From NCBI RefSeq assembly GCF_001403875.1, contig NZ_LN884299.1:930117-994116 (forward strand): a DNA stretch of 64,000 bases, read 5' to 3'. The notes under the pieces are model-generated. The model did not search any database and was not told the origin of the DNA. It saw only the letters and a list, made by a program, of their open reading frames with translations. Below are positions 24,813 to 63,551 of the stretch, in pieces. Both the position numbers and the translations under genes were made by a program. Origin of the DNA: Paenibacillus ihumii. Its GTDB lineage: Bacteria; Bacillota; Bacilli; Paenibacillales; Paenibacillaceae. Position 1 is the first letter of the stretch, and each line of letters opens with the position of its first letter.

Positions 24813-24885
24813 GTAGAACTGAACTTCATTGTGAGCTGGAGCGGGGCGTTCCCCTTCGGCCAATCGACGTGGGGGTGCTTTGTAC

Positions 24886-32499: not shown

Positions 32500-32506
32500 G
32501 TCTGAG

Positions 32507-33406
32507 CTATTGCGCGGAAGTTCCCCTCTCCCGAACTTTTTTATAATATTGACTGGGCGAAAGTCCCTCATACTTCTTAAATACCTTGCTAAAGTAATAC
32601 GGATCGTCCAGCCCGGACAAATAGCCAATTTCATTAAAGCTTAAATGGGTCGCTTCGATCAATTCCTTCGCATGATCGATTCGAATCCGGTTTACATAAC
32701 GCATAATGCTCCGGCCAGTCCATTTGGTGAATACCCGGTTGATGTAATCATAATTGCATTCAAATTCTTGCTCGATGTCCGTGCTGGTTATTTTTTCGGT
32801 ATAGTGCTCATGGATGTAGTCAAGCAAGGCGTGGACTTTAATGAACGATTTGGTATTGCCTCCCTCATGCGTTTGAAGCGTATCGATAAAGTATTTCCTG
32901 GAGACCTTGATCAGCCATTCGGTAAATTTTAGAGCGGTCAATCCGCGGTTGAAATATTTGCGCCTGTACAGCCCCAGTATTTCATTCATCGCAAGAAAGG
33001 AAAAAGACAGGTCTTTTTTCGACAAAGAATAGTTTTTTGGGAAATGACAAATAGAATTGTCCTGGCCGGCCTGATAGGCTTCTTCTTCCAGAATGACGTG
33101 TCTGGCTAAGGGAAGGATATCTTTCACCTCCACCGCTTTCATGTCCGAATGCTCAAAATGAACATAGTAATAGTCGCAAACGTGCTTATCTATGCCTTCG
33201 TGCTCCAAATTTGGCTCCAGGACAAGGAGATCCCCCTTCTTCAGGATATAGTCGACACCGTTTTCCCGGAGATGAAGCTCACCGCATTTGATGAAATAGA
33301 GAACCCATTCGTGCGTCGTTCTCTTAAAGTGAATCCAAGGCTGTTTATAGGAAACGAACCCCATCAATTTGATCTTCGGCATTACTTCCACATTAATAGC
33401 AAGCAT
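32507..33406 (-). CDS. AraC-family transcriptional regulator with cupin domain
   Basis: 299-aa one-component regulator. The N-terminal cupin contains LHLRENGVDYILKKGDLLVLEPNLEHEG, and the C terminus has two helix-turn-helix units (CNYDYINRVFTKWTGRSIMRYV; LSGLDDPYYFSKVFKKYEGLSPSQYY). It is divergent from the Gfo/Idh/MocA and ThuA genes (134 bases between), which it likely controls. The DNA-binding half resembles the other AraC regulators here only in family features. Confidence 0.86.
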   Translation of the reverse strand: MLAINVEVMPKIKLMGFVSYKQPWIHFKRTTHEWVLYFIKCGELHLRENGVDYILKKGDLLVLEPNLEHEGIDKHVCDYYYVHFEHSDMKAVEVKDILPLARHVILEEEAYQAGQDNSICHFPKNYSLSKKDLSFSFLAMNEILGLYRRKYFNRGLTALKFTEWLIKVSRKYFIDTLQTHEGGNTKSFIKVHALLDYIHEHYTEKITSTDIEQEFECNYDYINRVFTKWTGRSIMRYVNRIRIDHAKELIEATHLSFNEIGYLSGLDDPYYFSKVFKKYEGLSPSQYYKKVRERGTSAQ

Positions 33407-33540
33407 GATTATCCTCCCAGATCAATTTATAAAAGTCGCTTTTGTACAAAAAGGGTATCTTTCCGCCATTTCCGTCCATTCTATCACACTCTATACTGGG
33501 GTTGTGATTAAAACGATGTTAACAGGGATGGGGCGATGAA

Positions 33541-34608
33541 ATGGAAAAGCTGAAAATCGGTGTGATCGGCTTGGGCGGTATCGCGGACATGCATATTGGG
33601 GGCATATTGTCCAGCGAGGATGCCGACGTATGGTCGATTTGCGATTGCAATGAAGAAGCGCTGGCAAGAAGGGGCGAAGAACTCGGCATCCCGGAAACGC
33701 GAAGATATCTGAGTGTTACGGAATTGCTGGAGAATCCCGAACTCGACGCAGTGACGATCGGTACGCCAAATCACAATCATTATGCGATCGCCTGTGAGGC
33801 GATAAAGCGGCGTAAGCCTTTTGCCCTTGAAAAGCCGGTGTCGCTGGATACGCGGGAGGCGCGTATGCTGAGGGATATGCTGGCGAACGATTACCTGCCG
33901 CATATGGTTTGCTTCAGTTACCGTTACAAAGCGGCGGTGAGATATGCAAAATGGATGATTGACCAGGGCAAATTAGGCGATATTAAACACGTGTACAGCC
34001 AATACCTGCAAAGCTGGGGACTGGACGAAAGCATTCCGCTGGTCTGGAGATTCCGCAAAGAGCTGTCGGGATCGGGGGCGCTGGGAGACTTGGGCTCGCA
34101 TATTCTCGATCTTCAGCGTTTTCTCATCGGCGATGCAGAACGGGTGATTGCCGATGCGGATACGATTATCAAGGAACGCGGCCTCATTTCCGGAGACGGT
34201 AAGGGGGAGGTCGACGTCGACGACTTCTGTCATGTGCTGATGCGCCTTAAGGGAGGTGCTTCGGGAGCCATGTCCATTTCAAGATTCGCTTACGGGCGGG
34301 GGAACTACCAACAGCTGGAGATTTACGGTACCCGCGGAGCACTTGTGTACAATCTCGAAGAGGAAGACACTCTTTACGTCCATTTTTCCGAAGAGGGAGA
34401 CCGCGGATTCCGGAAAGCGGAAATTCCTGAATCCTTCCGAACTGATCAGATGCAGTCTTTTATCAACCTTGTCCAAGGAAAAGGGGATGGGTGTGACGCC
34501 GATATGGAAGACGGTTATATGAATCAGCTTACCCTTGACTCTATTATCGAATCATTTACGGAACAACGATGGATTCATATCAAACAGGAGGTGTTTCATC
34601 ATGTCTAA
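33541..34608 (+). CDS. Gfo/Idh/MocA-family sugar oxidoreductase (ThuB-like)
   Basis: 355-aa NAD(P)-dependent dehydrogenase. The Rossmann motif [15 protein letters not shown] is at the N terminus and the catalytic-site lysine lies in [10 protein letters not shown] near residue 100. A Gly-rich [14 protein letters not shown] follows near residue 183. The family oxidises or reduces sugars and their derivatives. It overlaps a ThuA-domain gene by 8 bases; in other bacteria ThuA/ThuB pairs convert disaccharides to 3-keto forms. A related role on isomaltose-type sugars from the dextran locus is inference. ATG start has GGGGCGATGA upstream. Confidence 0.85.
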
Positions 34609-35329
34609 CATCAATGTAACCGTATGGAACGAATACCGACATGAAAAACAAAGTGAACAAGTGAAAGCGATTTATCCGGAGGGCATTCATAGGGCCATTG
34701 CGAACTATCTGAACGGCCAGGACGGATTGGAGGCAGGAACCGCCGTGCTCGATGAGCCGGAACACGGACTGACCGATGAGGTGTTGGATAGAACCGACGT
34801 GCTGATTTGGTGGGGGCATTTGGCTCACGACGAGGTGAGCGATGAGATCGTAGAAAAAGTGCGCCAACGAGTGCTGTGCGGAATGGGTCTGATCGTCCTT
34901 CACTCGGGACACGGTTCAAAAATATTCCAAGCTCTTATGGGCACGAACACGGGAGCGCTGAAATGGCGGGATGACGGAGAAAAGGAAAGAATCTGGATTA
35001 TCGAGCCCGGCCATCCAATCGCGAAGGGCCTTGGCGAGTATATCGAAATTCCGAAGGAAGAAATGTACGGGGAACGTTTTGAGATCCCGGCCCCGGACGA
35101 ATTGATCTTTATTTCGTGGTTCGAAGGCGGTGAAGTGTTCCGCAGCGGTTGTTGTTACAAAAGAGGGCAGGGTAATATTTTCTACTTCAGGCCGGGACAT
35201 GAAACATTCCCCGTATACCACCACCCCGAGGTGCTTCAGGTGATTGCCAACAGCGTGCGCTGGGCGGCGAAGAGTGAACTTGCTAAATTCTCTTACGGGC
35301 GCGTGGCGCCTCTGGAGACAGTTCGTTAA
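34601..35329 (+). CDS. ThuA-domain protein
   Basis: 242-aa protein of the ThuA fold (class I glutamine amidotransferase-like). Features: [20 protein letters not shown] at the N terminus, [14 protein letters not shown] near residue 70, [12 protein letters not shown] near 103, and [18 protein letters not shown] near the end. The start ATG 34601 has AGGAGG 8-9 bases upstream and overlaps the preceding stop by 8 bases. A longer frame open from 34535 lies inside the previous gene and is not favoured. It probably works with the upstream dehydrogenase on a keto-sugar; catalytic role is not proven for most family members. Confidence 0.85.
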
Positions 35330-35347
35330 TTTAAAGGCAGTTATCAC

Positions 35348-35380
35348 AGGAGGGCGAATATGTCAACGCTCTCCTTTTTG
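35348..35380 (+). terminator. Terminator after the ThuA gene
   Basis: AGGAGGGCG pairs with CGCTCTCCT (one G-U) around a loop at 35348-35375, followed by TTTTTG. It separates the ThuB/ThuA pair from the GH13 gene. Confidence 0.7.
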
Positions 35381-35475
35381 ATGTTTTGGAGATTATAGAA
35401 TGTTGTACATGAAAGAGAGATTTTTTAAGATGAATTTGAAACGTTTATTTATATGCGGTATTGGGAGGAATTTAG

Positions 35476-37161
35476 GTGAAAATGGGCGCTTTTTGGCAAG
35501 AAGAAGTCGTTTATCAGATTTATCCCCGTAGCTTCATGGACAGCAACGGAGACGGGATCGGAGATTTGCGGGGGATCATCAGCAAATTAGATTATTTGAA
35601 GGAGCTCGGAGTAGGCATCGTGTGGTTGAGTCCGGTCTATAAATCTCCGAACGACGATAATGGATACGACATCAGCGATTATCAGGATATTATGGATGAA
35701 TTCGGCACAATGGACGATTGGGAGGAGCTGCTCCACGGCCTTCATGAACGCGGTATTCGGTTGATTATGGACCTCGTGGTCAATCATTCCTCTGACGAGC
35801 ATTCCTGGTTTCAGGAATCCAAAAAATCCAAAGATAATCCTTACCGTGATTTTTATATTTGGAAACCCGGGAAAGGGGACGGTTCCGAACCGAACAATTG
35901 GGTATCTTTCTTCGGCGGCTCAGCATGGCAATATGACGAGGTGACGGATGAATACTACCTGCATCTGTTTTCGAAGAAGCAGCCGGATTTGAATTGGGAA
36001 AATCCAAGGCTTCGGCGTGCGGTATACGATATGATGACTTTCTGGTTAGAGAAGGGGATCGACGGATTCCGCATGGACGTGATCAATTGTATTTCAAAAG
36101 CGGAAGGTCTGCCGAGCGCTGGGGATGACAAATATGCTTGGGGAGGCGAGTTTTTCCTCTGCGGGCCGAGGTTGGAGCAATATCTGAAAGAAATGAACGA
36201 AGAGGTATTGTCCAAATACGACGTCATGACCGTCGGGGAGATGCCGGGAGTGACGCCGGAGCTGGCTGCGCGCTATACGGATCCGGCTAACAAGGAATTA
36301 AACATGGTATTTCATTTCGAGACGATGGATATCGACGCCGGGGAAGGCGGGAAGTGGAACTTCACCAAGTGGAAGCTGGCCGACTTGAAAGCCGTTACGA
36401 ACAAATGGCAGTACGGACTGAACGGCAGAGGCTGGAACAGCCTTTATCTGAACAACCACGACCAACCTCGTATGGTGTCCCGTTTTGGCGACGACACGGT
36501 ATACCGGAAAGAGTCGGCCAAGCTTCTGGCCACGTTCCTTCACACCCTTCAGGGCACGCCTTACATTTTTCAGGGCGAGGAAATTGGCATGACGAACGTG
36601 AAATTCGATAATATCGACCAATACCGGGATATCGAGACGCTAAATTTCTTTAAAGAGGCGGTTCATGACGGGGGCATGCCGGTGGAGCAAGCGATGGCCG
36701 CGATCTATGCAAAATCCCGGGATAACGCAAGAACTCCGATGCAATGGAACGAAAGCAAACACGCTGGATTCACGACAGGAGAGCCTTGGATCGGAGTAAA
36801 TCCCAACTTTAAGGAGATTAATGTCGAGGATGCGCTGCGGGATAAGGATTCCATTTTTCATTACTACAAAAAATTGATCCAATTGCGCAAGCAGCATCCG
36901 ATTATGATCTATGGCGATTATGATATCGTGGCTGAAGAGCATGAACAAATTTATGCCTATACCCGAACTTGGCGAAACGAAAAATGGATCGTGATTCTCA
37001 ATTTCTCTGACAGGGAGGCGGAATTCACGCTTCCAGAAAAGCTAGAGGAATATCGTAGTGGAAATCAATTAATCATTTCCAACTACGAAAACGTGACTGA
37101 AACACCGATCCGTGAGTTGAACCTCAGACCTTATGAAGCGAGAGTATATAGATTGGTATAG
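35476..37161 (+). CDS. GH13 alpha-glucosidase (oligo-1,6-glucosidase type)
   Basis: 561-aa cytoplasmic GH13 enzyme that releases glucose from short alpha-glucans. Catalytic residues counted from GTG 35476 are nucleophile D201 (GFRMDVIN), acid/base E255 (VGEMPG) and stabiliser D329 (NNHDQPR). V202 follows the nucleophile; in characterised Bacillus enzymes valine here goes with alpha-1,6 preference, while Ala, Thr or Gly goes with alpha-1,4. RBS is GGGAGG 7 bases from GTG; an ATG two codons later is possible. No signal peptide. Its neighbour is a GH66 dextranase, so isomaltooligosaccharide from dextran is the likely substrate. Confidence 0.92.
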   Translation: MKMGAFWQEEVVYQIYPRSFMDSNGDGIGDLRGIISKLDYLKELGVGIVWLSPVYKSPNDDNGYDISDYQDIMDEFGTMDDWEELLHGLHERGIRLIMDLVVNHSSDEHSWFQESKKSKDNPYRDFYIWKPGKGDGSEPNNWVSFFGGSAWQYDEVTDEYYLHLFSKKQPDLNWENPRLRRAVYDMMTFWLEKGIDGFRMDVINCISKAEGLPSAGDDKYAWGGEFFLCGPRLEQYLKEMNEEVLSKYDVMTVGEMPGVTPELAARYTDPANKELNMVFHFETMDIDAGEGGKWNFTKWKLADLKAVTNKWQYGLNGRGWNSLYLNNHDQPRMVSRFGDDTVYRKESAKLLATFLHTLQGTPYIFQGEEIGMTNVKFDNIDQYRDIETLNFFKEAVHDGGMPVEQAMAAIYAKSRDNARTPMQWNESKHAGFTTGEPWIGVNPNFKEINVEDALRDKDSIFHYYKKLIQLRKQHPIMIYGDYDIVAEEHEQIYAYTRTWRNEKWIVILNFSDREAEFTLPEKLEEYRSGNQLIISNYENVTETPIRELNLRPYEARVYRLV

Positions 37162-37190
37162 AAGAAGGGGCCGCCCCTTCTTTTTTCTTT
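37162..37190 (+). terminator. Terminator after the GH13 gene
   Basis: AAGAAGGGGC and GCCCCTTCTT form a nearly contiguous inverted repeat (37162-37183) followed by TTTTTTCTTT, directly after the stop codon. Confidence 0.85.
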
Positions 37191-37349
37191 TGCTGAGATA
37201 AAAAGTAAAAGAAGACACGATCAGAGTAATTAAATCCACTTTTTGCATAATTTAGGATGTTATTCTATAGAGGGAAGGGGGTGGTGACTTTTATCATACC
37301 GATGAAAAAGATTGTGCACGAGTAAAATCTATGAAGGGAGTAGGTAAAT

Positions 37350-40091
37350 TTGATCGGCAAGAGTTTGAGGAGGATGCTTGCGGTATCTTTAACATGCACG
37401 CTGCTTTTTAGTCAAATGGGTTGGGGCTCGGATGAAGCAGCCGCCGCAAGTACGGGGAAAGTCGTTTATGACGTAACGACGGATAAAGCAATGTATGATC
37501 CGGGCTCGACAGTGGAAGTACGGATTGACTTGAAAAACAGGCTAGGGAGGGATCTCACCGGAGGAACCGTAGAAATCAAGGCCAAGCATTTAGAGAGCCA
37601 GATTGGTGAGACGATCCGGAAACCTCTGGATTTGAAGCATAGTGCAGATGTCATCATGGTCGCGAATTGGCAGGCTCCTAACCAGGATTTTAAAGGCTAT
37701 TTGCTAGAGGTTGATGTGAAGGATGCATCAGGGAACGTTGTAGATTCGGACACGGTAGGAGTAGATGTCTCGTCATCCTGGGTTAAATTCCCGCGATACG
37801 GGTATGTATGGGATTTCGGACAAAACACGAATACTGCCGAACGCATAGATAAGCTGAAAAATTATCATATTAATGCCCTTCAATACTATGACTGGAAATA
37901 CCGCCATCACAAGCCGGTAGCCCCCGATTTGAGACAGTGGGACGACTGGTCGGGACGGCCGATCTACGGCGACACGGTTCGAAGTTATATTGCCAACGCA
38001 AAGGCCGTCGGAATGGCGAATATGGCCTATAACATGATTTATGCGGCCACCTCGGGATATGACAAGGATGGTGTTAAACAGGAATGGGCTTTATATTACG
38101 CAGATGACAACCCGAGGGGGCAAGGTCACTTCAGTTTTAAAATGGCGGATTCCACACCGACGGGCATTACACATCTTTACTTCTTCAATCCGCTAAACCC
38201 CGGTTGGCAAAATTATATTTTTGCGGAAACGAATAAAATATTCGAACACTTCGATTTTGACGGGTGGCATGGGGATACGGTTGGAGAATGGGGGAAGATG
38301 AAAACCTCGGATAACCGGACCTTGTACGTGAAAGACACGTATACTGAATTTTTGAACAAAGCAAAGCAGGCGATCGGCGGTAAATATCTGGTGTTCAATC
38401 CGGTTGGAGCCCAAGGTATTGAAAATGCTAGCAAGGCGAATGTTGACGCGATCTATGCGGAAATCTGGCCATGGGACAGAGACAGTGAGGGTGAGCTATA
38501 TGACACGTATTATTCATTGAAGAAAGAGATCGAGCAATCCCGAAAAGAGAGCGGAGGCAAGTCTCTAATTGTTCCCGCCTATATGAGCTACGATTATGGG
38601 GAGCAGAACCCAGGCAGTCCGTTTAATACGGCGGCTGTTCTGCTGACCGACGCCGCTGTGTACGCAGCCGGCGGTTCACGAATGGAGTTGGGCGACAACG
38701 GGAACATGCTCAGCAATGAATATTTTCCCGCCCAAAATTTATATATGACCGAGGATTTGAAATATCGTATCGGCAAGCTGTATGACTTTATCGTGGCTTA
38801 CGAAAACCTGCTTCGAGATGGGCAAACGGAAACGGCGAACCGGATTGAGTTTCCTCAGTACGCAAGCAGTGCAACGGGCGAGCCTAATAAAATATGGGCT
38901 TACGGCAAAAAGGACAATCGGTATGAAATTATCCAGATGATCAATTTGCTGGGAGTGAGCAAGAACGATTGGCGTGCGAACGATGGACGCAAGGAGACGC
39001 CCCAGAAGATCAGCAACTTTGAGGTGAAGTACTACTATACGAATGACGTGAACAGCGTATGGCTTGCCTCACCGGATTCCGACGACGGACGTTCAAAACG
39101 GCTGCAGTTTACCAAAGGTAGCGACGGAAAAGGCAAGTATGTGCTGATCTCGGTGCCTTCGTTGGAATACTGGAACATGATTTATATGAGCAGTGACCGT
39201 TCCGGAGGAGAAGAGGAGCAACCTGGCGGAATCGGGAAACTGATGAACGGCGGTTTTGAGAGTGGAGAAGCAGGATGGACATATGCAGGTACAGCTGCCC
39301 ATGGTGTCGACAGCAACGATGCTTTTGAAGGAAGCAAGTACTGGATTTGGGGTCCCGATGCTTATACGGCTAAAGTATCGCAAACCGTTTCGGGCCTGGA
39401 ACCGGGGACTTACTCGGTAAGCGCAAAGGTTAAACAAAATACCGGCACGCCCATGATCAGCAGAATGGAACTATCCGGTCTTGGCGGAGAGACGGTTTTC
39501 GTGAACATTCCTCACAGCGGTCAGTACGAAAATATATCTGGTACCGTTCAAGTAGTAAATGGTGAGCTCAACATCGCTTTTTACCAGGAAGCCCCGGGCA
39601 ATACGAATCTGCAAATCGACAACGTCGAATTAATTGCAGGCACCGGAAGTAGTGAAGAGAATCCTCCAGGCAGCTTTCCGGCATTGGTCAACGGCGGGTT
39701 TGAAAGCGGTGACATTTCGGGCTGGAAGGCAACGGGTACAAATGTTGGCGTGGATGGTTCCGACGTCAATGACGGTAGTTTTAAATGTTATTTCTGGAGC
39801 GGACAAAATTATCAGCAAAAGATAGAGCAGGAATTGACGGGCTTGGAAAATGGCAAATACACGGTTTCAGCCATGGTGAAGCAAAATACCGGAACCCCTT
39901 TGCTTAGCAGAATGGAACTATCCGGTTATGGCGGCAGTCCCGTTTACACAAACATTTCTCACGGAAATGACTACTCCATGATTAAGGGCACAGTTCAGGT
40001 TACGAACGGCAAGTTGAATATAGCTTTTTATCAGGCAGCTCCGGGCGAGACAAATTTACAAATTGACAAGGTTGAACTTGTGAAAGATTAA
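37350..40091 (+). CDS. Secreted GH66 endodextranase with two C-terminal CBM repeats
   Basis: 913-aa extracellular GH66 enzyme that cuts alpha-1,6 bonds inside dextran. Signal peptide near residues 1-34 (ending AAAA). An Ig-like module (VVYDVTTDKAMYDPG) precedes the catalytic barrel, with D309 in FDGWHGDTVG as expected nucleophile and E371 in AIYAEIWPWD as expected acid/base. No CBM35 insertion follows, unlike in cycloisomaltooligosaccharide glucanotransferases, so endodextranase is favoured. After residue 625, two homologous modules of about 135 aa each start with LMNGGFESG and ALVNGGFESG and contain SAKVKQNTGTP or SAMVKQNTGTP (CBM4/9- or 22-like). Start TTG 37350 with AAGGGAG upstream. Likely feeds the transporter at 41217. 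Confidence 0.92.
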   Translation: MIGKSLRRMLAVSLTCTLLFSQMGWGSDEAAAASTGKVVYDVTTDKAMYDPGSTVEVRIDLKNRLGRDLTGGTVEIKAKHLESQIGETIRKPLDLKHSADVIMVANWQAPNQDFKGYLLEVDVKDASGNVVDSDTVGVDVSSSWVKFPRYGYVWDFGQNTNTAERIDKLKNYHINALQYYDWKYRHHKPVAPDLRQWDDWSGRPIYGDTVRSYIANAKAVGMANMAYNMIYAATSGYDKDGVKQEWALYYADDNPRGQGHFSFKMADSTPTGITHLYFFNPLNPGWQNYIFAETNKIFEHFDFDGWHGDTVGEWGKMKTSDNRTLYVKDTYTEFLNKAKQAIGGKYLVFNPVGAQGIENASKANVDAIYAEIWPWDRDSEGELYDTYYSLKKEIEQSRKESGGKSLIVPAYMSYDYGEQNPGSPFNTAAVLLTDAAVYAAGGSRMELGDNGNMLSNEYFPAQNLYMTEDLKYRIGKLYDFIVAYENLLRDGQTETANRIEFPQYASSATGEPNKIWAYGKKDNRYEIIQMINLLGVSKNDWRANDGRKETPQKISNFEVKYYYTNDVNSVWLASPDSDDGRSKRLQFTKGSDGKGKYVLISVPSLEYWNMIYMSSDRSGGEEEQPGGIGKLMNGGFESGEAGWTYAGTAAHGVDSNDAFEGSKYWIWGPDAYTAKVSQTVSGLEPGTYSVSAKVKQNTGTPMISRMELSGLGGETVFVNIPHSGQYENISGTVQVVNGELNIAFYQEAPGNTNLQIDNVELIAGTGSSEENPPGSFPALVNGGFESGDISGWKATGTNVGVDGSDVNDGSFKCYFWSGQNYQQKIEQELTGLENGKYTVSAMVKQNTGTPLLSRMELSGYGGSPVYTNISHGNDYSMIKGTVQVTNGKLNIAFYQAAPGETNLQIDKVELVKD

Positions 40092-40121
40092 TAACAATTC
40101 CATTTCAGGAGGGAATAACTT

Positions 40122-40994
40122 ATGGAAAGTTTTATCTGCTTAAAAGAGCGTGTGTTTGTTGGGCCGGTAAATAAGTTGATGGTTACCCTAGGAATTTCAG
40201 TGCTGTTATTCGCATTGTCCATTATGTTCGCGGACAAGGCATCCGCTCACGGTTTTGTTGAGAATAGCCGGGCGGATCTGTGCGCCAAAGGAATTAATAC
40301 GGATTGCGGCTATGTGAAATATAATCCCGCCGATTTGGAGGCACCGGGCGGATTTCCTAACGGTGGACCTGAAGACGGAAAAATTGCCAGCGCCAATGGC
40401 CGATATCCGGAGATGGACCAACAATGGACTGACCGGTGGGAAAAAATAAATATCGCAAGCGGACTCAATACGTTTACCTGGGTTCATACGGCAAACCATA
40501 ATACAGCGAATTGGAGATACTACATTACTAAGCCTGATTGGAACCCCAACCAGCCGCTTACTCGTGATTCATTTGATGCTCTCTCTTTTTGTACGGTGTC
40601 GCATGATGGATCGCTTCCTGAATTTAAAGATAATCACCTCTGTAATGTACCATCGGATCGAAGTGGCTATCATGTGATTCTCGCTGTTTGGGAGGTTGCG
40701 TATACGGGAAGCACTTTTTATCAAGTAATAGATGTTAATATTGACGGCGATATCGATCCTGGCAACGGCGGGAATCCCGGTACCGGGGAGGGAAATGAGA
40801 ACCCTGAAGAATGCGGGCACCTTGCTTGGAGTTCCACTCAAGTATACAATTACGGCGATATTGTTTCGTTTAACGGGGGAGACTGGAAAGCCAGATGGTA
40901 CTCCCAGGGGCAGGAACCTGGAGTTTCCGGCGAATGGGGGGCCTGGGAGTACCTGGGGAAATGCGCTGATGCCGATGGCCACCAGCATCCATAA
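40122..40994 (+). CDS. AA10 lytic polysaccharide monooxygenase with CBM5-like module
   Basis: 290-aa secreted copper enzyme. Signal peptide cleavage after ...KASA leaves H43 as the new N terminus, as the histidine brace needs; the second histidine is in TANHNTANWRYYITKP. A GFVENSRADLCAKG start and SFCTVSHDG-type motifs fit AA10. A Gly/Asn/Pro-rich linker (near residue 210) leads to CGHLAWSSTQVYNYGDIVSF and ARWYSQGQEPG, a CBM5-type chitin-binding module. A short HQHP tail ends the protein. RBS is GGAGGG. AA10 enzymes attack chitin or cellulose, so location 30 bases after a dextranase is unexpected; dextran oxidation is not established for the family. Confidence 0.92.
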   Translation: MESFICLKERVFVGPVNKLMVTLGISVLLFALSIMFADKASAHGFVENSRADLCAKGINTDCGYVKYNPADLEAPGGFPNGGPEDGKIASANGRYPEMDQQWTDRWEKINIASGLNTFTWVHTANHNTANWRYYITKPDWNPNQPLTRDSFDALSFCTVSHDGSLPEFKDNHLCNVPSDRSGYHVILAVWEVAYTGSTFYQVIDVNIDGDIDPGNGGNPGTGEGNENPEECGHLAWSSTQVYNYGDIVSFNGGDWKARWYSQGQEPGVSGEWGAWEYLGKCADADGHQHP

Positions 40995-41038
40995 TAAAAA
41001 TAACGTTAACTTTTTAGGAGTTTGGTAGTAGAAGGTGT

Positions 41039-41086
41039 AAAGGTGCATTATTTTGAGATCATATCAAAATAAAATGCACCTTTTTT
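41039..41086 (+). terminator. Terminator after the AA10 gene
   Basis: AAAGGTGCATT...TTTTGA pairs with TCAAAAT...AATGCACCTTT (41039-41083) and ends in TTTTTT. It separates the dextranase/LPMO unit from the transporter operon. Confidence 0.88.
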
Positions 41087-41099
41087 ATTTTGCATATAT

Positions 41100-41114
41100 T
41101 TGGAAACGCTAACT
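41100..41114 (+). promoter_or_regulatory. cre site 1 upstream of dextran-oligosaccharide transporter
   Basis: TTGGAAACGCTAACT matches the WTGNAANCGNWNNCW consensus at all fixed positions. It lies 103 bases before the binding-protein ATG and 26 bases before a second site. Confidence 0.65.
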
Positions 41115-41140
41115 TCACAATATTGTTCACCATGAGCCAA

Positions 41141-41155
41141 ATGTAAACGGTTTCT
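41141..41155 (+). promoter_or_regulatory. cre site 2 upstream of dextran-oligosaccharide transporter
   Basis: ATGTAAACGGTTTCT also matches the consensus fully, on the same strand and starting 41 bases after site 1 (about four helical turns). The pair suggests strong CcpA control of the 41217 operon. Confidence 0.68.
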
Positions 41156-41216
41156 CACTGAGAAGTCCCGCCTCATAATAAAGGAGTAAGTTAAATCGAT
41201 AAGGGGGTTTCAAAGT

Positions 41217-42530
41217 ATGAAGTTTTACAAAAAAATATCTATTGGTGTAATGTCAGCCGTTTTGGCATTTTCATTATCTGCCTGCGGCGGAACTAATGGC
41301 GGATCGGCTTCAAACGGGAATTCGGACAAGACGGGCGGCAACCCAGGAAATACTGGCTCAAAGAAAGTGACAATCGAGTACTGGCATACCTACGGGGAGC
41401 AGGAAGAAAAAGTGCTGACGGAACAAGTAGTTCCGAAATTCGAAGAAGAACACCCTGAAATCAAAGTAAACTTGACCAGAATGCCTTATGAAGGATTAAA
41501 GGAGCAAGTCATTGCCGGTGTAGCTGGCGATGCAGCGCCGGATTTGATGCGCATGGATATTATCTGGGTTCCTGAATTCGCCAAAATGGGAGCACTGCAA
41601 GACGTCAGCAAAATGGATGGATTTGAGGAAGTGAAGTCCAGTGTATTTAAAGCGCCGATGGAAACGAACTACTTCAATAATGGCTACTATGGCGTTCCAT
41701 TGAATACGAATACCAAAATTGCCATTTATAATAAGGCGCTTTTGGAGAAGGTCGGGCTTAAGGAAGCTCCAAAAACAATGGATGAATTTGTGGCAGCTTC
41801 CAAAAAGGCAATGGAGCAAGGAGCCAAAGGGGCGATTGGTATCTCGGGACCGCATGTTTGGGGTGCTTCCCCTTATTTCTGGAGTCTTGGCGGCGCTTTG
41901 ACTAACGAGGATTATACCGAAGTTGAAGGTTATCTGAACGGTCCGGAAAGCGTTAAGGCGTTGGAGACGATCGTACAGTGGGGCAAGGAAGGGCTGATTA
42001 TCCCAACCATGCTCGGCGGAGAGCCGGGTGTATGGGATGGATTGAAGAACAATGAATATTTCATGATAGATGACGGCCCTTGGTTCTTCAGTACATTGAT
42101 GAATGAAGAGAACGCAAACTTTAACATCGAAGATACAGTATGGACGCAAATGCCTGAAGGAATTGGTGGAAGTCGTTCGGTTGTTGGCGGTGAAAACTTG
42201 GTCATCTTCGCGAATTCTAAACACCCGGCAGAAGCTTGGACATTTGCCAAGTGGTTGATTACGGAAGAACCCCAAAAAATATTGGCCAAAGCTGGATTGA
42301 TTCCGACAAATCAAAAGGCCGCAAACGATCCATCCGTTTTGAAAGAACCATACATGACAGAATACGTAAAGCAATTGGAAACGGCCCTTCCGCGGACACC
42401 GATCCCACAGTATGGTGAAATGGAGACCATCGTGAACCTGGCGATCGAAAAAGCGGTTCGCGGTGAGTCTGAACCGAAGGCGGCTTTGGATGAGGCAGCT
42501 AAAAATATCGAATCTATTCTTAATAAATAA
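41217..42530 (+). CDS. Sugar ABC transporter solute-binding lipoprotein (dextran locus)
   Basis: 437-aa family 1 binding protein with lipobox LSAC and lipidated C23. Motifs: IEYWHTYGEQEEKVLTEQVVP, AAPDLMRMDIIWVPEFAKMG, VPLNTNTKIAIYNKALLEK, MIDDGPWFFSTLM. A paralogue at 51902 shares [21 protein letters not shown] and TDEGPWFYS. The RBS is a GGGGG run upstream of ATG. It is first gene of an operon with two permeases and a lipoprotein GH66, so isomaltooligosaccharides are the probable ligands. Two cre sites precede it and a perfect hairpin follows it. Confidence 0.92.
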   Translation: MKFYKKISIGVMSAVLAFSLSACGGTNGGSASNGNSDKTGGNPGNTGSKKVTIEYWHTYGEQEEKVLTEQVVPKFEEEHPEIKVNLTRMPYEGLKEQVIAGVAGDAAPDLMRMDIIWVPEFAKMGALQDVSKMDGFEEVKSSVFKAPMETNYFNNGYYGVPLNTNTKIAIYNKALLEKVGLKEAPKTMDEFVAASKKAMEQGAKGAIGISGPHVWGASPYFWSLGGALTNEDYTEVEGYLNGPESVKALETIVQWGKEGLIIPTMLGGEPGVWDGLKNNEYFMIDDGPWFFSTLMNEENANFNIEDTVWTQMPEGIGGSRSVVGGENLVIFANSKHPAEAWTFAKWLITEEPQKILAKAGLIPTNQKAANDPSVLKEPYMTEYVKQLETALPRTPIPQYGEMETIVNLAIEKAVRGESEPKAALDEAAKNIESILNK

Positions 42531-42549
42531 TTGAAGCTAGTACTATAAG

Positions 42550-42585
42550 GATGCATCGCCTGATGACGCCATCAGGCGATGCATC
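42550..42585 (+). promoter_or_regulatory. Perfect 16-bp hairpin between binding protein and permease
   Basis: GATGCATCGCCTGATG (42550-42565) pairs exactly with CATCAGGCGATGCATC (42570-42585) around the loop ACGC. The following TTTAC is too short for a strong terminator, so it likely stabilises the upstream mRNA and partly limits downstream expression. Confidence 0.8.
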
Positions 42586-42616
42586 TTTACCCGGATAAGG
42601 GAAAGGAGTGGTGAAG

Positions 42617-43576
42617 ATGTCAATTCCATTGGCCAGCCAGCCGCAAGCCGGAAAAAAACCGCCGACAGCAACACGGATGAAAAAAGGCCTCAAACAATGG
42701 ATGGCTGTTTTGCCTTTTATTTTTTTAGGGGTGCTGGGTACCGCGGTATTTGTCGTCTACCCGATGATCCGAAATATTTTTATCAGCTTTCAAGATTACA
42801 GTATCATGCCAAATGCGGAGAATCCATTCGTTGGGTTTGAGAATTATGTTTCCGCTTTTACGGATCCTAACAACAAAGTATTGATGGCGATTCGAAATAC
42901 GATTTTGAACGTGATCGTGACCGTGCCGATCAACTGGCTTTTGGCGATCGTTTTCGCTGTATTAATTAATCTTCACTTTGTAAAGTACAAGCTTGTGTTC
43001 AGGACCGTGTATTACTTGCCGATTATTACCTCTTGGATCGTTGTTGCATTTCTGTTCAGATTCTTGTTTGCGGGCGGGGAATACGGTTTAATCAACTTCA
43101 TTTTTTATAAGGTACTCGGTATTTTTCCGGAACCGGTCAATTTTCTTTCCAACTACTGGACGGCTATGGTCGTAATTTGGTTGTTCCATATCTGGAAGAC
43201 GGTCGGTTGGGGGGTTGTTATCTATTTGGCGGGGCTTCAAGGGATATCGAAGGAATACTATGAGGCTGCCCAAATTGATGGAGCTAGCGGAATCAGGCAA
43301 TTTTGGAACATTACAGTACCGATGCTCGCTCCGGTTACCGCGTTTGTGATCATAAATCTCGTTAATGGGGCTTTTAACTTCTTCCCGCAGGTGTATTTCA
43401 TCACTCGTGGAGGGCCAATGGATCAGACACAAACGCTCCCGAGTTTGATGTATATGCAGGCGTTCAAAAACTTTAACTTTGGATATGCTTCCGCTGTTGC
43501 CGTTATGATGGGTATCACTGTATTTTTGGTGACCTATACCCAGATGAAAAAATTCGGCAATCAGAAGATGCTGTAG
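42617..43576 (+). CDS. Sugar ABC transporter permease (MalF type)
   Basis: 319-aa permease with six predicted helices and the EAA loop YYEAAQIDGASGIRQFWNIT (E216 region). Start ATG 42617 is favoured because AAAGGAG at 42602-42608 is 8 bases upstream; two GTG codons at 42608 and 42611 overlap that site. It is coupled with the next permease (12 bases apart). Uptake of isomaltooligosaccharides is inferred from the operon. Confidence 0.92.
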   Translation: MSIPLASQPQAGKKPPTATRMKKGLKQWMAVLPFIFLGVLGTAVFVVYPMIRNIFISFQDYSIMPNAENPFVGFENYVSAFTDPNNKVLMAIRNTILNVIVTVPINWLLAIVFAVLINLHFVKYKLVFRTVYYLPIITSWIVVAFLFRFLFAGGEYGLINFIFYKVLGIFPEPVNFLSNYWTAMVVIWLFHIWKTVGWGVVIYLAGLQGISKEYYEAAQIDGASGIRQFWNITVPMLAPVTAFVIINLVNGAFNFFPQVYFITRGGPMDQTQTLPSLMYMQAFKNFNFGYASAVAVMMGITVFLVTYTQMKKFGNQKML

Positions 43577-43588
43577 GAGGGGCAGACA

Positions 43589-44422
43589 ATGAAAACCAAA
43601 TGGTATCTTCAACTCCTCGTATACACGGTCATTATTATGGGGGCTCTCGCGTTCTTGTTTCCCTTCGTATATATGATCTTGACCAGTTTTATCAAGAGCG
43701 CGTATTCACTACCACGACCGAAAGAAATTTTCTCGGTGGTTCCCAATCTGGACAACTATTTTCTTGTTTGGAACAAAAATAATTTCGCCCGTTACTTCCT
43801 GAACAGTGCACTGGTGACGGTCGTATCCATGGTCGGCAGTATGCTGCTGGGATGCTTAACGGCCTACGGATTTGCCAGATTTCAATTTCCTGGAAAGGAA
43901 CTGCTTTTCCGCGTATTCTTGTTGACGACGATGATTCCAGGTGTCATTAACATTATCCCGCAGTTTCTTATTATCAAAAATCTTGGACTGGTAAGCACTT
44001 ATTGGGGACTGTGGTTGATTTATATCGGTGGGGGAGTTGTTGGAAGTACGTTCTTCCTTCGAGGATTTTTCCAGAGCATCCCCAAGGAATATGAAGAATC
44101 CGTTCTCATTGACGGTGGTGGAAACTGGCGTATTTTCTGGAATATTTATTTGCCGCAATCCCTTCCGGCGATCGGAACTCTGGCGGTATTGTCCTTCCAG
44201 GGCACGTGGGAAGAATATTTTACGGCTCTCGTAATTATCAAAGACGAGGCGATGAGAACACTGCCGATTGCCTTGCTGATGTTTAACGATAAATACGCAA
44301 CTAACTACGGATGGGTGTTTGCGGCTTCAATCATTGCGCTGATCCCAACCGTGCTGCTCTATATTGTTTTCCAGAAAAGGTTTGTTCAAGGCGGATTTAA
44401 TGAAGGCGGTGTAAAAGGGTAG
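43589..44422 (+). CDS. Sugar ABC transporter permease (MalG type)
   Basis: 277-aa partner permease. The EAA loop is slightly altered, reading EYEESVLIDGGGNWRIFWN (E170-S), with the usual conserved glycine. C terminus FVQGGFNEGGVKG is typical. RBS AGGAGGGG precedes ATG. The lipoprotein GH66 gene follows 33 bases later. Confidence 0.92.
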   Translation: MKTKWYLQLLVYTVIIMGALAFLFPFVYMILTSFIKSAYSLPRPKEIFSVVPNLDNYFLVWNKNNFARYFLNSALVTVVSMVGSMLLGCLTAYGFARFQFPGKELLFRVFLLTTMIPGVINIIPQFLIIKNLGLVSTYWGLWLIYIGGGVVGSTFFLRGFFQSIPKEYEESVLIDGGGNWRIFWNIYLPQSLPAIGTLAVLSFQGTWEEYFTALVIIKDEAMRTLPIALLMFNDKYATNYGWVFAASIIALIPTVLLYIVFQKRFVQGGFNEGGVKG

Positions 44423-44455
44423 TTCAATAAACAGGAAGACAGGAGAACTAGCGAA

Positions 44456-46243
44456 ATGATAATGAAATTTTGGAGATTACGGCGGACTTCACTTGTAATT
44501 TTATGCTGTCTGACGGTCTTGATTGCAGGCTGCAGCAAGAAGCAATTGCTGAAAGCGGAAGAGGTGACGGGTGAGTCAAAGATGGACAGAGTCGCAACGG
44601 ATAAGGCGGCTTATAAGCCGGGGGAACAAGTAAACTTCACGCTTTATTTAAAGGAAAACGTCAGTGATGCAGAGGTCAGAGTCCAGTATCGCCATTTGGA
44701 GGAAGTGATTGAACAACAGGAGCTGAAAGCTGCTGGCGAAAAGCTGAATTGGACCTGGAATCCTCCGAAAGAGGACGGAAAAGGGTACATGGCCGAGATT
44801 TTTCTGATGAAGAAAGGAGAGGCGCAGGATCATCTTAATATCGCGGTCGATGTTTCTTCCGATTGGACTAAATTTCCGCGTTACGGGTATTTGGCGGATT
44901 TTCATGCTATGAGCCAGGATGAGATGGCATCGATCATTGAACGTCTGAATCGGTTCCACATCAATGGGGTGCAATTTTATGATTGGCAATATAAGCATCA
45001 AACGCCGATTAAGATGGATGCAGACCAGCCGGCAAAAAGCTGGGACGACATTGCCAACCGACCGGTCGCTTTTGATACGGTGAAAGGTTACATTGATCTG
45101 GTCCACGGGTACAACATGAAAGCAATGAATTACAATCTGATCTTTGGCGCGTATGAAGACGCGGAGCAGGACGGAGTCAAACGGGAGTGGGGGCTTTTTA
45201 AAGATCCCAGTGCGATGAATCAGGATAAACACCCGCTTCCGGAAAATTGGGCAAGTGATATTATGTTGTATGATCCGTCCAACACGGATTGGCAGAAATA
45301 TTTGATCGAAAAGGAAGCCGAGGTGTTTAAGCATCTGCCCTTTGACGGGTGGCATGTCGACCAGCTGGGAGATCGGGGAGGTCTCTGGAATGCGCAGGGA
45401 GAAAGTGTCAAACTGCCCGAAGGCTATGTCTCCTTTTTGAAAAGTGCAAAGGAGCGCCTGGATATCTACTACGTCATGAACGCGGTTGGTCAGTACGGTC
45501 AAGCCTTTATGGCCCCGAACGCACCACTGGATTTTCTATATACGGAAGTATGGGATGGACATCCGAAATATAAAAACCTCAAAGAAATCATCGATCAGAA
45601 CGCCAAGTACAGCAAAAATCAGTTGAATACGGTACTGGCTGCCTATATGAATTATGATTTGGCCAATACTCCGGGTGAGTTCAACACACCGGGGGTGTTA
45701 CTGACGGATGCGGTCATCTTTGCTTCAGGCGGATCACATCTCGAGCTTGGGGAGAACATGTTGGCCAAGGAATATTTTCCAAATAAAAATTTGAAAATTC
45801 CCGCTGAGCTTGAGGAACAACTAATTCATTACTATGACTTCCTGGTAGCTTACCAGAATATTTTGCGAGATGGAATGGAAGAGTCTGAGGTTACGGTAGA
45901 AGGAACGGACGAGGTACAAATTTCTGCTTCTGCGGATCAAGGAAAGGTCTGGTCTTTTGCTAAGCACAAGGATGGGGAGGATATTGTTCACTTTATTAAC
46001 TTCACCGATGCAGTAACTATGGACTGGAACGATTCAGCAGGGGAACAGACTGAGCCTGCCGAACGTCAGAATGTGAAGGTCATAGTCCAAACCAGTGGGA
46101 CAGTGGACCGGATCATGTTCGCATCTCCTGATTATTATGGAGGTTCGCCTGTAGAACTCTCGTTTGAACAAAAGGACGGTCAAATTTCTATAGAGCTACC
46201 TAAGCTGAAATATTGGGATTTAATCAAAATATCTTATAAATAA
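44456..46243 (+). CDS. Lipoprotein GH66 dextranase
   Basis: 595-aa GH66 enzyme anchored to the membrane by lipobox IAGC (LIAGCSKKQ). An N-terminal Ig-like module (ATDKAAYKPGEQVNFTLYL) is followed by the barrel, with D302 (FDGWHVDQLG) and E364 (LYTEVWDGH) aligned to D309 and E371 of the secreted enzyme at 37350, the same 62-residue spacing. It lacks the CBM modules. The motif reads HVDQ in place of HGDT. As the last gene of the transporter operon, it likely trims long isomaltooligosaccharides at the cell surface before import. RBS is AGGAGAACTAGCG. Confidence 0.92.
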   Translation: MIMKFWRLRRTSLVILCCLTVLIAGCSKKQLLKAEEVTGESKMDRVATDKAAYKPGEQVNFTLYLKENVSDAEVRVQYRHLEEVIEQQELKAAGEKLNWTWNPPKEDGKGYMAEIFLMKKGEAQDHLNIAVDVSSDWTKFPRYGYLADFHAMSQDEMASIIERLNRFHINGVQFYDWQYKHQTPIKMDADQPAKSWDDIANRPVAFDTVKGYIDLVHGYNMKAMNYNLIFGAYEDAEQDGVKREWGLFKDPSAMNQDKHPLPENWASDIMLYDPSNTDWQKYLIEKEAEVFKHLPFDGWHVDQLGDRGGLWNAQGESVKLPEGYVSFLKSAKERLDIYYVMNAVGQYGQAFMAPNAPLDFLYTEVWDGHPKYKNLKEIIDQNAKYSKNQLNTVLAAYMNYDLANTPGEFNTPGVLLTDAVIFASGGSHLELGENMLAKEYFPNKNLKIPAELEEQLIHYYDFLVAYQNILRDGMEESEVTVEGTDEVQISASADQGKVWSFAKHKDGEDIVHFINFTDAVTMDWNDSAGEQTEPAERQNVKVIVQTSGTVDRIMFASPDYYGGSPVELSFEQKDGQISIELPKLKYWDLIKISYK

Positions 46244-46261
46244 AAATTCTTCTATACAGAT

Positions 46262-46305
46262 ACCAAAATGAGGCGGGATTCTGAGCTCACTCGTTTTGGT
46301 TTTCT
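46262..46305 (+). terminator. Terminator after the lipoprotein GH66 gene
   Basis: ACCAAAATGAG pairs with CTCGTTTTGGT-type sequence ending at 46300 (one G-U), followed by TTTCT. It closes the transporter operon. Confidence 0.75.
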
Positions 46306-46312
46306 GTAATAT

Positions 46313-46327
46313 TTGAAAACGTTTGCT
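46313..46327 (+). promoter_or_regulatory. cre candidate upstream of the chemoreceptor gene
   Basis: TTGAAAACGTTTGCT matches WTGNAANCGNWNNCW at all fixed positions. It lies between the operon terminator and the chemoreceptor start at 46370, placing that gene under likely CcpA control. Confidence 0.6.
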
Positions 46328-46369
46328 TTAGTTAGTTTTATCACTATAAGACTAGGATGTGAGCATCCA

Positions 46370-48409
46370 TTGAATTTTTTATCGTTCAACTATCGTAATA
46401 TTAACCTTCACTCAATTAAATGGAAGCTGTTAAGCCTGTTATTGGCATTGATTCTAATCCCATTAGTTGCTGTTGTCTTGGTCTTCTACTATCGTTCATC
46501 TGCTATTATCAAAAGTACGGTTACAGATGTATCTATAAAATCGGTGTCACAGGCTAATGAGAAACTGGATTTAATGCTGTCGCAATACGAAATGCTGACC
46601 ATGCAAGTGTTGCTCGATAAAGACGTGCAAAGTGCTTTAAATATGGAAACGGTAAAGACGGGAAAGACAGATCAAATTAATAAAACGAATAACAAACTTA
46701 AAGAGTTGAAAGGGCCTTATAAAGATTTAATAGGTATCTATATGATTGCGGATGATCTAGAAAGACAGAGAAAACTTCCGTTATTTTACAATATTTCCGA
46801 TGATGTTCGGGAAAGATTGATAGGTCAGGTTGGGACAGCAGGAGGCACCGTATATTTAGGTCTTGAGAATAGCATTGCTTCCGATGAGTTTCTCAACAAA
46901 CAGAAGGTATTTGCGTTTGGTCGTCCACTGAAGCGGCTGAGTGACAATAAGACGGTAGGTTTTCTCCTTCTAGAAGTGAAGGCAGATGCGATAAAGCAAA
47001 CGCTGGCAGACCTTCGTTTGGATGACGAGGGAAATTCATATATCGCCTCTGCGGATGGCAAAGTATTGGTTGCCGAAGAAGAATCCTTGTTAGGAACCAA
47101 GCTGTCATTCGGCTTGAAAGAAAATGAACAGGAGAATAGCTGGCAGGAGGTAATTAATGGGAATAAATTTATTGTTACTCGGGCGGCATCCGCTATAGCG
47201 GGTTGGCAGGTTGTGTCGGTATATCCGGTGGACAAGCTGCTAGAAGATATGCGCCAGATTCGGTCTGAGGTTATCTTCATCGCGCTTGTTTGTTCAGCAA
47301 TCATTATCGTACTTGCATATTTCAGTGCAAGACGCTTCACGCACCCGATTGAAAAGCTCCGCATGATGATGAGTCATGGCGAGGCAGGAGATTTGACAGT
47401 ACGGGCTGATTTAGCGGGAAAGGATGAGCTTGCTGCGTTAGGCGGAAGTTTTAATCAAATGATAGGAAAAATCCGTAAACAGTTTATTCAGACATTTGAA
47501 GCTGCAGATGAAGTTCTTGGTACCTCTACTCATCTGAGCGAATCCTCAGGGGAAATGTCCAAGTATGCGAAGGAAATTGCCAACGCTACCGAGAGTATCG
47601 CGAAAGGCGCTGAACAACAAGCTACGGCGCTTGAGAAAGGGAATGGTCTAGTTCTAGAGATGACCTCCAATGTGAAACAGATGACGGAGGATGTTCAAGA
47701 CCTGATTGAGGTTTCCAATCAAGCCCAAGAACGAAGTGTGCAAGGTACCCAACATATGACACTGATGATTGGCAAAAATCGGGACACAGCTCAAATTATG
47801 AAGGAAATCTCCAGTCATGTGAGCAAACTCTTTGATAGACTTGGGGAAATCGACAGCATTCTTGAACTTATCCGCAACATATCTAAGCAAACAAATATTT
47901 TGTCACTGAATGCCACAATTGAAGCCAATCGTGCGGGGAACGCGGGCAAGGGCTTTATGGTGATTGCATCGGAGGTACGTGCTCTGGCCATGCAGTCGGG
48001 GGATTCGGTTACCCGAATCGTACAAACGCTGGATAATATTCGCAAGGATATGGATGCAACTAAAGTTGCTTTGCTTAAATCCGGTCCGATCATGGAAGAA
48101 CAGATTCATTCTGTAGAACAGGCTAACTTGATCTTTAATCAGGTGCAGGAAGGAATGGATGAGGCGAATAAGAGATTATCTACGTTTACTATGACTATGG
48201 AGCGAATGGACCAATCGCAGCAACAAATTATGGAGTTTATTTCAGATGCTGCTGCCGTTGCTGAGCAATCTATGGCGATGTCTCAGCAGGTGGCTTCATC
48301 TGCCGCGGATCAACAGCAGTTAACCGAACAGTTTGTCCGTTGGTCGGTTCAACTTGAGCAAGTATCAGAGCGACTTAGAGTTTCATTAAATCATTTTAAA
48401 ACTTCATAA
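46370..48409 (+). CDS. Methyl-accepting chemotaxis protein
   Basis: 679-aa receptor if started at TTG 46370, preceded by AGGATGTGA (8 of 9 matches to AGGAGGTGA) about 7 bases away. An upstream TTG at 46313 lies in the cre site and is unlikely. Transmembrane helices near residues 17-37 ([22 protein letters not shown]) and 300-320 ([18 protein letters not shown]) flank an extracellular Cache-like region. HAMP follows ([14 protein letters not shown]), then the signalling hairpin with [33 protein letters not shown]. It sits between dextran uptake genes and a sensor kinase, so chemotaxis to an alpha-glucan product is plausible but inferred. Confidence 0.92.
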
Positions 48410-48557
48410 ATATCACTTCGGATGGCGGTATGGTTAGGAAACTAAGTTTTTTATGGCAGGGGAGATGCCTAATAGACCTTTGCACCGAATGATATAATAA
48501 TGTAGCACTTGTAACATGGATTAAAATTATGAAACGAATTAGGGAGATGAACAACAA

Positions 48558-51886: not shown

Positions 51887-51901
51887 AAAGGGGGTATGGG
51901 G

Positions 51902-53223: not shown

Positions 53224-53457
53224 ACATCGTTTCGTGTCCATAACCTCAAGAAATTCGATAACACCGGCGAAGACCTGGAGGATCTGATTTCGATCGGAAC
53301 GATCGGCTTGATCAAGGCAATTGAGAGATTCCGGCCGAACAAAGGGACGAAGCTGGCGACGTTTGCGGCCCGCTGCATTGAGAACGAGATACTGATGCAT
53401 CTCCGGTCGTTGAAGAAGACGCGTAAAGATGTGTCGCTGCACGATCCGATTGGAGCG
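53224..53457 (+). repeat. Direct repeat copy 1 (sigK-derived), matching 63318-63551
   Basis: 234 bases nearly identical to 63318-63551, including a 24-bp lead-in not found next to intact sigK (starts ACATCGTTTCGTGTCCA). The two copies differ at only a few positions, mostly near the lead-in. They bracket the fructan locus of about 10 kb in direct orientation. Confidence 0.9.
53248..53457 (+). pseudogene. sigK internal fragment (truncated both ends)
   Basis: Encodes [17 protein letters not shown]...SLHDPIG, aligning to residues 66-134 of intact SigK at 24886. It lacks the pro-sequence and the first 65 codons, and it ends at the DPIG codons where IS66-like sequence begins. Compared with intact sigK nearly all base changes are synonymous, except one S-to-R change (AGA for AGC). 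It cannot make a sigma factor. A 110-codon frame over 53152-53484 is a by-product. Confidence 0.92.
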
Positions 53458-63317: not shown

Positions 63318-63551
63318 ACATCGTTTCGTGTCCACAACCTCAAGAAGTTTGACAACACAGGCGAAGACCTGGAGGATCTGATTTCGATCGGAACGATCGG
63401 CTTGATCAAGGCAATTGAGAGCTTCCGGCCGAACAAAGGGACGAAGCTGGCGACGTTTGCGGCCCGCTGCATTGAGAACGAGATACTGATGCATCTCCGG
63501 TCGTTGAAGAAGACGCGTAAAGATGTGTCGCTGCACGATCCGATTGGAACG
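63318..63551 (+). repeat. Direct repeat copy 2 (sigK-derived), matching 53224-53457
   Basis: Carries the same 24-bp lead-in (begins ACATCGTTTCGTGTCCA, one base different in the second half) followed by sigK sequence. It is the right-hand partner of the copy at 53.2 kb. The spacing between copies is 10,094 bases. Confidence 0.9.

Follow-up and report, generated by a model that had tools for sequence, protein, structure and literature searches.

An AA10 LPMO with an altered chitin-contact face beside a dextranase-type gene in Paenibacillus ihumii

The window analyzed here, a stretch of 64,000 nucleotides from Paenibacillus ihumii (contig NZ_LN884299.1, positions 930,117 to 994,116), carries the gene for an AA10 LPMO directly behind that for a dextranase-type enzyme of family GH66 (GH66a). 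The LPMO gene is real and intact; it is unusual in one respect and otherwise ordinary, being one AA10 gene among five in the genome. Half of the chitin contacts defined by mutagenesis in CBP21 are replaced in its product, and the copper-site residues are kept. The linkage of this LPMO to dextran genes rests on one case. The reading preferred here, tentatively and at somewhat less than an even chance, is that of an accessory LPMO of the chitin clade with a remodelled contact face, probably co-transcribed with the dextranase, which would attack a polymer containing GlcNAc where the surrounding matrix is rich in dextran.

The LPMO and its structural relatives

40122-40994, + strand: AA10 LPMO with CBM5/12, 290 amino acids, ATG start behind an AGGAGG ribosome site
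LPMO residues: signal peptide, about 1-42; catalytic domain, 43-207; linker, about 208-232; CBM, 235-275

The protein matches the Pfam profile LPMO_10 over residues 43-205 (E 1.1e-37, 130.9 bits against a cut-off of 23) and, as the preliminary description had proposed for a CBM5-like module, CBM_5_12 over residues 235-275 (E 1.7e-7, 31.6 bits against a cut-off of 26.2). The leader ends in KASA directly before HGF, so the mature chain should start at His43; the N-terminal histidine claimed earlier is in place behind the ASA of the leader, with cleavage predicted at this point. The copper-site residues comprise the brace of His43 and His126 and the axial Phe199, the TAxH motif reads TANH, and the equivalent of E60 is Glu73. 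From its residues, the copper site looks intact. Four cysteines of the catalytic domain (54, 62, 157, and 174) are kept and presumably pair as in CBP21. The AlphaFold model (45 rows) has a mean pLDDT of 79, with values of 86-97 for the ten-residue blocks between 41 and 210, and superposes on the solved AA10 structures 5wsz and 2bem at 0.8-0.9 Å. The C terminus (40962-40994) reads CADADGHQHP, a short tail whose histidines may coordinate metal; from residue 284 on, pLDDT stays under 50.

BtLPMO10A (5wsz) shows 53% identity and an rmsd of 0.8 over the catalytic domain, CBP21 (SmLPMO10A; 2bem) 52% identity and an rmsd of 0.9. Both share the histidine brace, A112, E60, T111, and F187 with the LPMO; all four cysteines are shared with CBP21, and BtLPMO10A as aligned lacks the second pair. 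BtLPMO10A is active on chitin. Unlike both enzymes, the LPMO has two residues fewer after the N-terminal histidine, carries a CBM5, and stands in a dextran-type operon.

An alternative to the preferred reading is an ordinary chitin LPMO whose place behind the dextranase is accidental, which cuts like CBP21 and takes from its neighbors at most the timing of its expression. In its favor are the CBP21-type nearest structures, the CBM5, the intact brace and TAxH motif, and a host genome with four further genes for AA10s and 8 matches to GH18, which make the use of chitin and cellulose plausible in this organism. Weighed against the contact face described below, this alternative is rated as rather unlikely.

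At least one of the other AA10s of the genome adjoins enzymes for a likely target. One (L085) lies in a GH5-AA10-GH44-GH10 cluster in which every member has a CBM3; this cellulose-type cluster (6540-15058 of L085) places an AA10-CBM5-FN3-CBM3 protein between the GH5 and the GH44/GH10 genes. Another (L082) is found near a GH4 enzyme and, on the other strand, a BadF-type kinase, with a GH18 match ∼7 kb away. The domain scan of neighbors covered these two loci; the remaining AA10 genes are L083 and L084.

The GH66a-LPMO unit and the surrounding operon

35476-37161, + strand: GH13 enzyme of the core operon, above the NCBIfam phosphotrehalase subfamily cut-off and below that of treC itself
37350-40091, + strand: GH66a, secreted, dextranase-type by homology, 913 amino acids, two C-terminal CBM4_9-like modules
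40092-40121, + strand: GH66a-LPMO gap, 30 bases, with the ribosome binding site inside
41039-41083, + strand: terminator-like hairpin 3' of the LPMO gene
41217-44422, + strand: sugar ABC transporter of the core operon, binding protein (SBP) and two permeases
44456-46243, + strand: GH66b of the core operon, lipoprotein-like second dextranase-type enzyme
48558-51886, + strand: sensor kinase and AraC-type response regulator of the core operon

GH66a matches the GH66 profile (E 1.2e-202), and its best solved relative is 5axg, annotated "Dextranase" (E 1.4e-134). With 416.7 and 704.6 bits, GH66a and GH66b both fall below the NCBIfam endo-dextranase cut-off of 730, and the GH66 family also includes cyclising transferases. 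The dextran setting is thus one assigned by homology, from the second GH66, the ABC transporter, and the GH13 enzyme. Where the related loci L086 and L087 have one C-terminal module, GH66a has two that resemble each other (about 632-763 and 778-913), and its region 674-911 gives a match to the last part of the GH31 enzyme 5x7o.

The open reading frame coordinates confirm the 30 bases given earlier as the distance between the two genes, and the gap contains no terminator or promoter match. This layout makes co-transcription of GH66a and the LPMO likely. From 37000 to 40472, the promoter scan detected no sigma-70-like site on the + strand; this silence weighs little, since the region upstream of GH66a is included and yields no promoter either. 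The LPMO gene had also been placed ahead of a terminator. A stable hairpin does follow it: the fold of 40995-41095 has a z of -4.07, with none of 200 shuffles equally stable, and the hairpin was not picked up by a simple terminator scan. It is not tied to the LPMO, since the same hairpin stands upstream of the SBP gene in L102, a locus without an LPMO, and so probably predates it. The core pattern of the hairpin also occurs somewhere in L104 and L128. A search for RNA elements gave no Rfam match above gathering score within the window. Two cre-like matches lie at 41101 and 41142; window-wide there are 28 (palindromes counted on both strands) against a shuffle mean of 17, a count reached by 1 of 100 shuffles.

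Distribution of the GH66-LPMO linkage

The family was covered by 394 genomes, the window's own among them; a GH66 above cut-off occurs in 98 of these and a match to the LPMO protein in 204. The weak LPMO matches (∼1e-10) look like CBM-only matches. Besides the window's own genome, 89 have a GH66 at E <1e-70. Three of these were left out: G166, with a single LPMO match on contig C13 and its GH66 on C7, and G236 and G251, which have weak LPMO matches only (1.8e-11 and 6.7e-11). Also left out were a second GH66 place in G227 and weak GH66 matches (about 1e-4 to 1e-7). This gave 116 GH66 neighborhoods of 4 to 20 kb from 86 genomes, a few of them on short contigs that show little beyond the GH66; the GH66 places are those among the matches listed, and further ones may exist. 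Ten named GH66a loci from a GTDB genome scan were added, three of which duplicate L086, L087, and L096, for a total of 126 neighborhoods, 123 of them distinct.

By tblastn, no LPMO is found in the 116 neighborhoods (E up to 1e-8) or in the ten GTDB loci (E up to 1e-4), and a profile of 77 AA10 domains finds none in all 126 (E up to 10). All five controls were recovered by this profile; the control sequences were rows of it, and so they show merely that the search was running. Conversely, no GH66 or GH13 relative occurs in the 1.5-kb flanks of 74 loci from the LPMO search, two of which (L032 and L033) are CBM-only matches. The LPMO is likewise absent from 24 of 24 loci that share the core operon.

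The description of the LPMO as embedded in a dextran locus therefore holds for this genome and, as far as the 126 GH66 neighborhoods go, for no other. A conserved partnership of LPMO and dextranase is ruled out, as the LPMO occurs in none of the GH66 neighborhoods examined. On these sequence comparisons the LPMO is a one-off addition among the related gene clusters examined. The lack of a second case of the linkage also favors the ordinary chitin LPMO. In the limited body of literature searched on AA10 and dextranase, alpha-glucan clusters, dextran and pullulan, and Paenibacillus AA10-CBM5 proteins, no report of an AA10 in a dextran locus was found, judging by titles and the beginnings of abstracts.

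History of the locus

37182-41021, + strand: stretch with GH66a and the LPMO, 3.84 kb, missing from L102, which has 186 other bases there

Core loci are defined as the 24 in which SBP and GH66b both exceed 45% identity. With variations, they carry GFO-ThuA-GH13 followed by SBP, two permeases, GH66b, HK, RR, and SBP2. An operon of this type, with AraC ahead of GFO and likewise with variations, occurs in Paenibacillaceae and in Halalkalibacter/Bacillus relatives. In core operons elsewhere no LPMO was found, and the pair of GH66a and LPMO stands only in the window. In 7 of the 24, GH13 is followed by SBP at a distance of 191-519 bases with no window protein matching in between.

L102, the closest core locus, comes from another genus. 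It matches the window at 32493-37181 with 99.5% identity, at 41022-46427 with 86%, and at 48528-53147 with 88%. On its left side the missing 3.84-kb stretch is bounded by the terminator-like hairpin of GH13, and on its right side it ends 27 bases after the stop codon of the LPMO. The two edges have no direct repeat of at least 8 bases in common and one 8-base inverted match, so that no borders of a mobile element were recognized by a shared direct repeat of this length. In Halalkalibacter alkalisediminis (L207) and Bacillus solitudinis (L209), GH66a directly precedes SBP and no LPMO is present. From the comparison of L102, L207, and L209, the position of GH66a beside SBP is probably ancient or has arisen more than once, and the LPMO is what is unique here. 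The LPMO may have arrived together with GH66a or later; less probably, the stretch was lost from L102.

Several further features of the locus were observed. The AraC-GFO-ThuA-GH13 block (32493-37181, against 19254-14566 of L102) keeps its 99.5% DNA identity across genera next to adjoining parts of 86-88%, which points to recent transfer or recombination of one operon half with an edge at the GH13 hairpin. Four flanking stretches of ∼20 kb at L102 match the window at sigma-factor genes only. Three places in the window (53239-53454, 24880-25581, and 63340-63837) show ∼78% identity to a single sigma-70-type gene of L204; the complete copy is that at 24880-25581, and the 216-base piece at 53239 lies just to the right of the region that the window has in common with L102. 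A mobile element as the source of this repeated stretch matching the L204 flank was ruled out, as it is the sigma-factor gene. The window segment 46428-48527 is also missing from L102. It belongs to a methyl-accepting chemotaxis protein (46313-48409) between GH66b and HK2, in place of which L102 has 138 bases; this protein has a 32% relative behind SBP2 in L099 and is possibly a chemoreceptor for isomalto-oligosaccharides. A second pair of sensor kinase and AraC-type regulator (29094-32499) immediately precedes the operon and is not part of the region in common with L102.

Relatives and origin of the LPMO

No close ortholog of the LPMO was found in 39 other genomes of the genus or 393 of the family, in 397 of the class and 120 of another Bacilli family (both at E up to 1e-60), in 51 of the genus g16 and 397 of the phylum (both at E up to 1e-70), samples that overlap, or on plasmids. 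The best relative among the matches listed reaches 61% over the catalytic domain. A GTDB scan with patterns of the LPMO alone, which are exact peptide patterns and insensitive, returned nothing. A plasmid source was rejected, as all 71 matching plasmid records stay below 60% identity, and identities of 47-54% to the genome's own AA10 copies rule out that the LPMO is a recent duplicate of one of them.

In a tree of 75 catalytic domains, the end branch of the LPMO measures 0.84, compared to a median of 0.021, and its placement is not supported. The nearest catalytic domains are those of AA10s from genus g16 (L067 and L072, in frames of ∼450 amino acids), at 60-61% in genome searches; L067 is 65% identical over 164 trimmed tree columns. 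These proteins are longer than the LPMO, show no violation of the contact face at the 90% threshold, and have no GH66 relative in their 1.5-kb flanks. The AA10-CBM5 proteins of Paenibacillaceae, among them L034 (from the window's own genome) and L007, share with the LPMO the two-domain layout (from a Pfam run on the own-genome copy) and the short N-terminal loop, and have a similar leader, FADxASAH. This loop is therefore ruled out as a singular feature of the LPMO. L034 and L007 are 46-47% identical to it over the shared stretch, keep E55, S58, and D182, have no GH66 or GH13 relative within 1.5 kb, and are not grouped with it by the tree. One AA10 gene of the same genus (G010, contig C1, 3168522-3169015) matches in two pieces with one internal TGA and is apparently broken.

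The chitin-contact face

The six residues Y54, E55, E60, H114, D182, and N185 of CBP21 bind chitin according to mutagenesis (PMC5589716; the same six in PMC3257281). Eight residues of CBP21 are listed from exchange NMR in PMC5589716, and PMC4144037 gives much the same NMR set. The face used here consists of the 13 residues listed in PMC5589716, with a wider version of 15, in CBP21 numbering and against 74 relatives.

The LPMO keeps H28, Y54, P56, E60, T111, A112, H114, T116, T183, and F187 and carries the changes E55N, Q57A, S58D, L110H, D182Y, and N185S. The 74 other rows all have E55 and S58, and 72 of them have D182 and 68 N185. Q57 and L110 vary anyway, being kept in just 56 and 52 rows, and Q53 is variable throughout. 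The L2 motif reads YNPADLE instead of Y(W)EPQSVE, whose E and S at positions 2 and 5 stand in all 74 other rows. The gating pair Glu60-Asn185 is broken: the glutamate is kept and the asparagine is Ser197. Only three of the six mutagenesis residues remain (E55, D182, and N185 are lost), compared to six in 61, five in 12, and four in 1 of the relatives.

At columns conserved to at least 95%, 3 of 5 violations by the LPMO fall on the 13-residue face, which makes up 5 of 53 columns (p 0.004). The corresponding figures are 4 of 8 violations with 9 of 67 columns at 90% (p 0.009) and 2 of 3 with 4 of 40 at 99% (p 0.022); the 15-residue face gives p values of 0.013 at 95% and 0.021 at 90%. These are modest tests, which treat the columns as independent, use the 74 relatives as background with no correction for relatedness, and were chosen once the motif had drawn attention. 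Of the 74 other rows, 20 break one or more face columns at 90%, 9 do so at 95%, and none at 99%; the face accounts for 2 of 5 violations in L242 at 95% and for 2 of 8 in L226 at 90%. Some change in the LPMO is expected anyway because of its long branch. In favor of the concentration on the face, L230, diverged as much as the LPMO, shows 12 violations at 90% with none on the face.

The long branch, the lack of a close ortholog in the genomes searched, and the substitutions at otherwise invariant positions would also suit a decaying or barely functional LPMO carried along with GH66a under relaxed selection. This is considered improbable, given that the reading frame, signal peptide, both histidines, four cysteines, and CBM are all kept and that violations at 95% affect just 2 of the 48 near-invariant columns that lie off the 13-residue face.

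Published variants bear on how the changes are to be read. Replacement at position 2 of L2, which is E55 in CBP21 and Asn in the LPMO, reduces chitin binding and abolishes activity in SmLPMO10A (PMC9344471); together with the replacement of half of the mutagenesis-defined contacts, this speaks against the ordinary chitin LPMO. The same paper reports CbpD (YDWNGVN) and Tma12 (YEWNEVN) as chitin-active without the consensus motif, so the L2 motif does not decide the substrate. N185A in CBP21 costs merely threefold in chitin affinity, and GbpA of V. cholerae has Ala at this position (PMC3257281). An AA11 LPMO with putative chitin activity hardly attacks chitin and is very active on soluble GlcNAc oligomers (PMC8453653), a precedent in another family for a substrate switch, and PMC11137697 cites a cellulose-active AA10 made chitin-active via surface residues beyond the copper sphere. 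The face appears remodelled rather than that of a standard crystalline-chitin enzyme, and the sequence of an AA10 cannot give its substrate with certainty.

Proposed function

The preferred reading, an accessory LPMO with a remodelled face, would work as follows. A secreted, copper-dependent AA10 of the CBP21 clade with a CBM5 is the second gene product of the GH66a-LPMO unit, which would be transcribed as a whole and is probably expressed when dextran is sensed. The LPMO, if active as predicted, would oxidise a GlcNAc-containing or composite polymer within a dextran-bearing matrix, for which fungal or arthropod wall material and chitosan-like or otherwise non-crystalline chitin are candidates. 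GH66a and GH66b would meanwhile remove the dextran, and the altered face would lower the affinity of the LPMO for plain crystalline chitin.

The preliminary description had suggested either a new substrate or chitin in a mixed biofilm, and the altered contact face lends the first half of this reading some independent weight, with no pointer to dextran. AA13 is the alpha-glucan LPMO fold, with activity on starch. Dextran itself as the substrate is possible: the remodelled face would allow dextran, or a different alpha-glucan, to be oxidised at the copper site and so boost the dextranases, in keeping with the position behind GH66a in a dextran-type operon. The CBM is of the chitin type, the 24 related core loci do without an LPMO, the AA13 fold matches weakly (4opb, E 3.7e-4, rmsd 5.0), and the AA10 substrates taken from PMC9344471 are chitin, cellulose, and, apparently for one enzyme, xylan. 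An LPMO active on alpha-1,6-glucan is hence the least probable of the explanations, very improbable indeed. A broader version, in which the face has switched the LPMO off crystalline chitin and the enzyme, recruited to a dextran-degradation operon, oxidises a novel AA10 substrate such as a dextran-bearing composite or alpha-glucan, is given a slim chance.

Implications

Since half of its known chitin-contact points are replaced, the target of this LPMO is a real and testable question. Which residues set the substrate choice of AA10 enzymes is an open question in the papers cited here, and an LPMO with kept copper-site residues, half of the chitin contacts replaced, and dextran neighbors offers a small and cheap test of it. 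Efficient cleavage of plain chitin would mean that the contacts defined by mutagenesis are less important than assumed, and cleavage of another polymer would give the AA10 family a new substrate.
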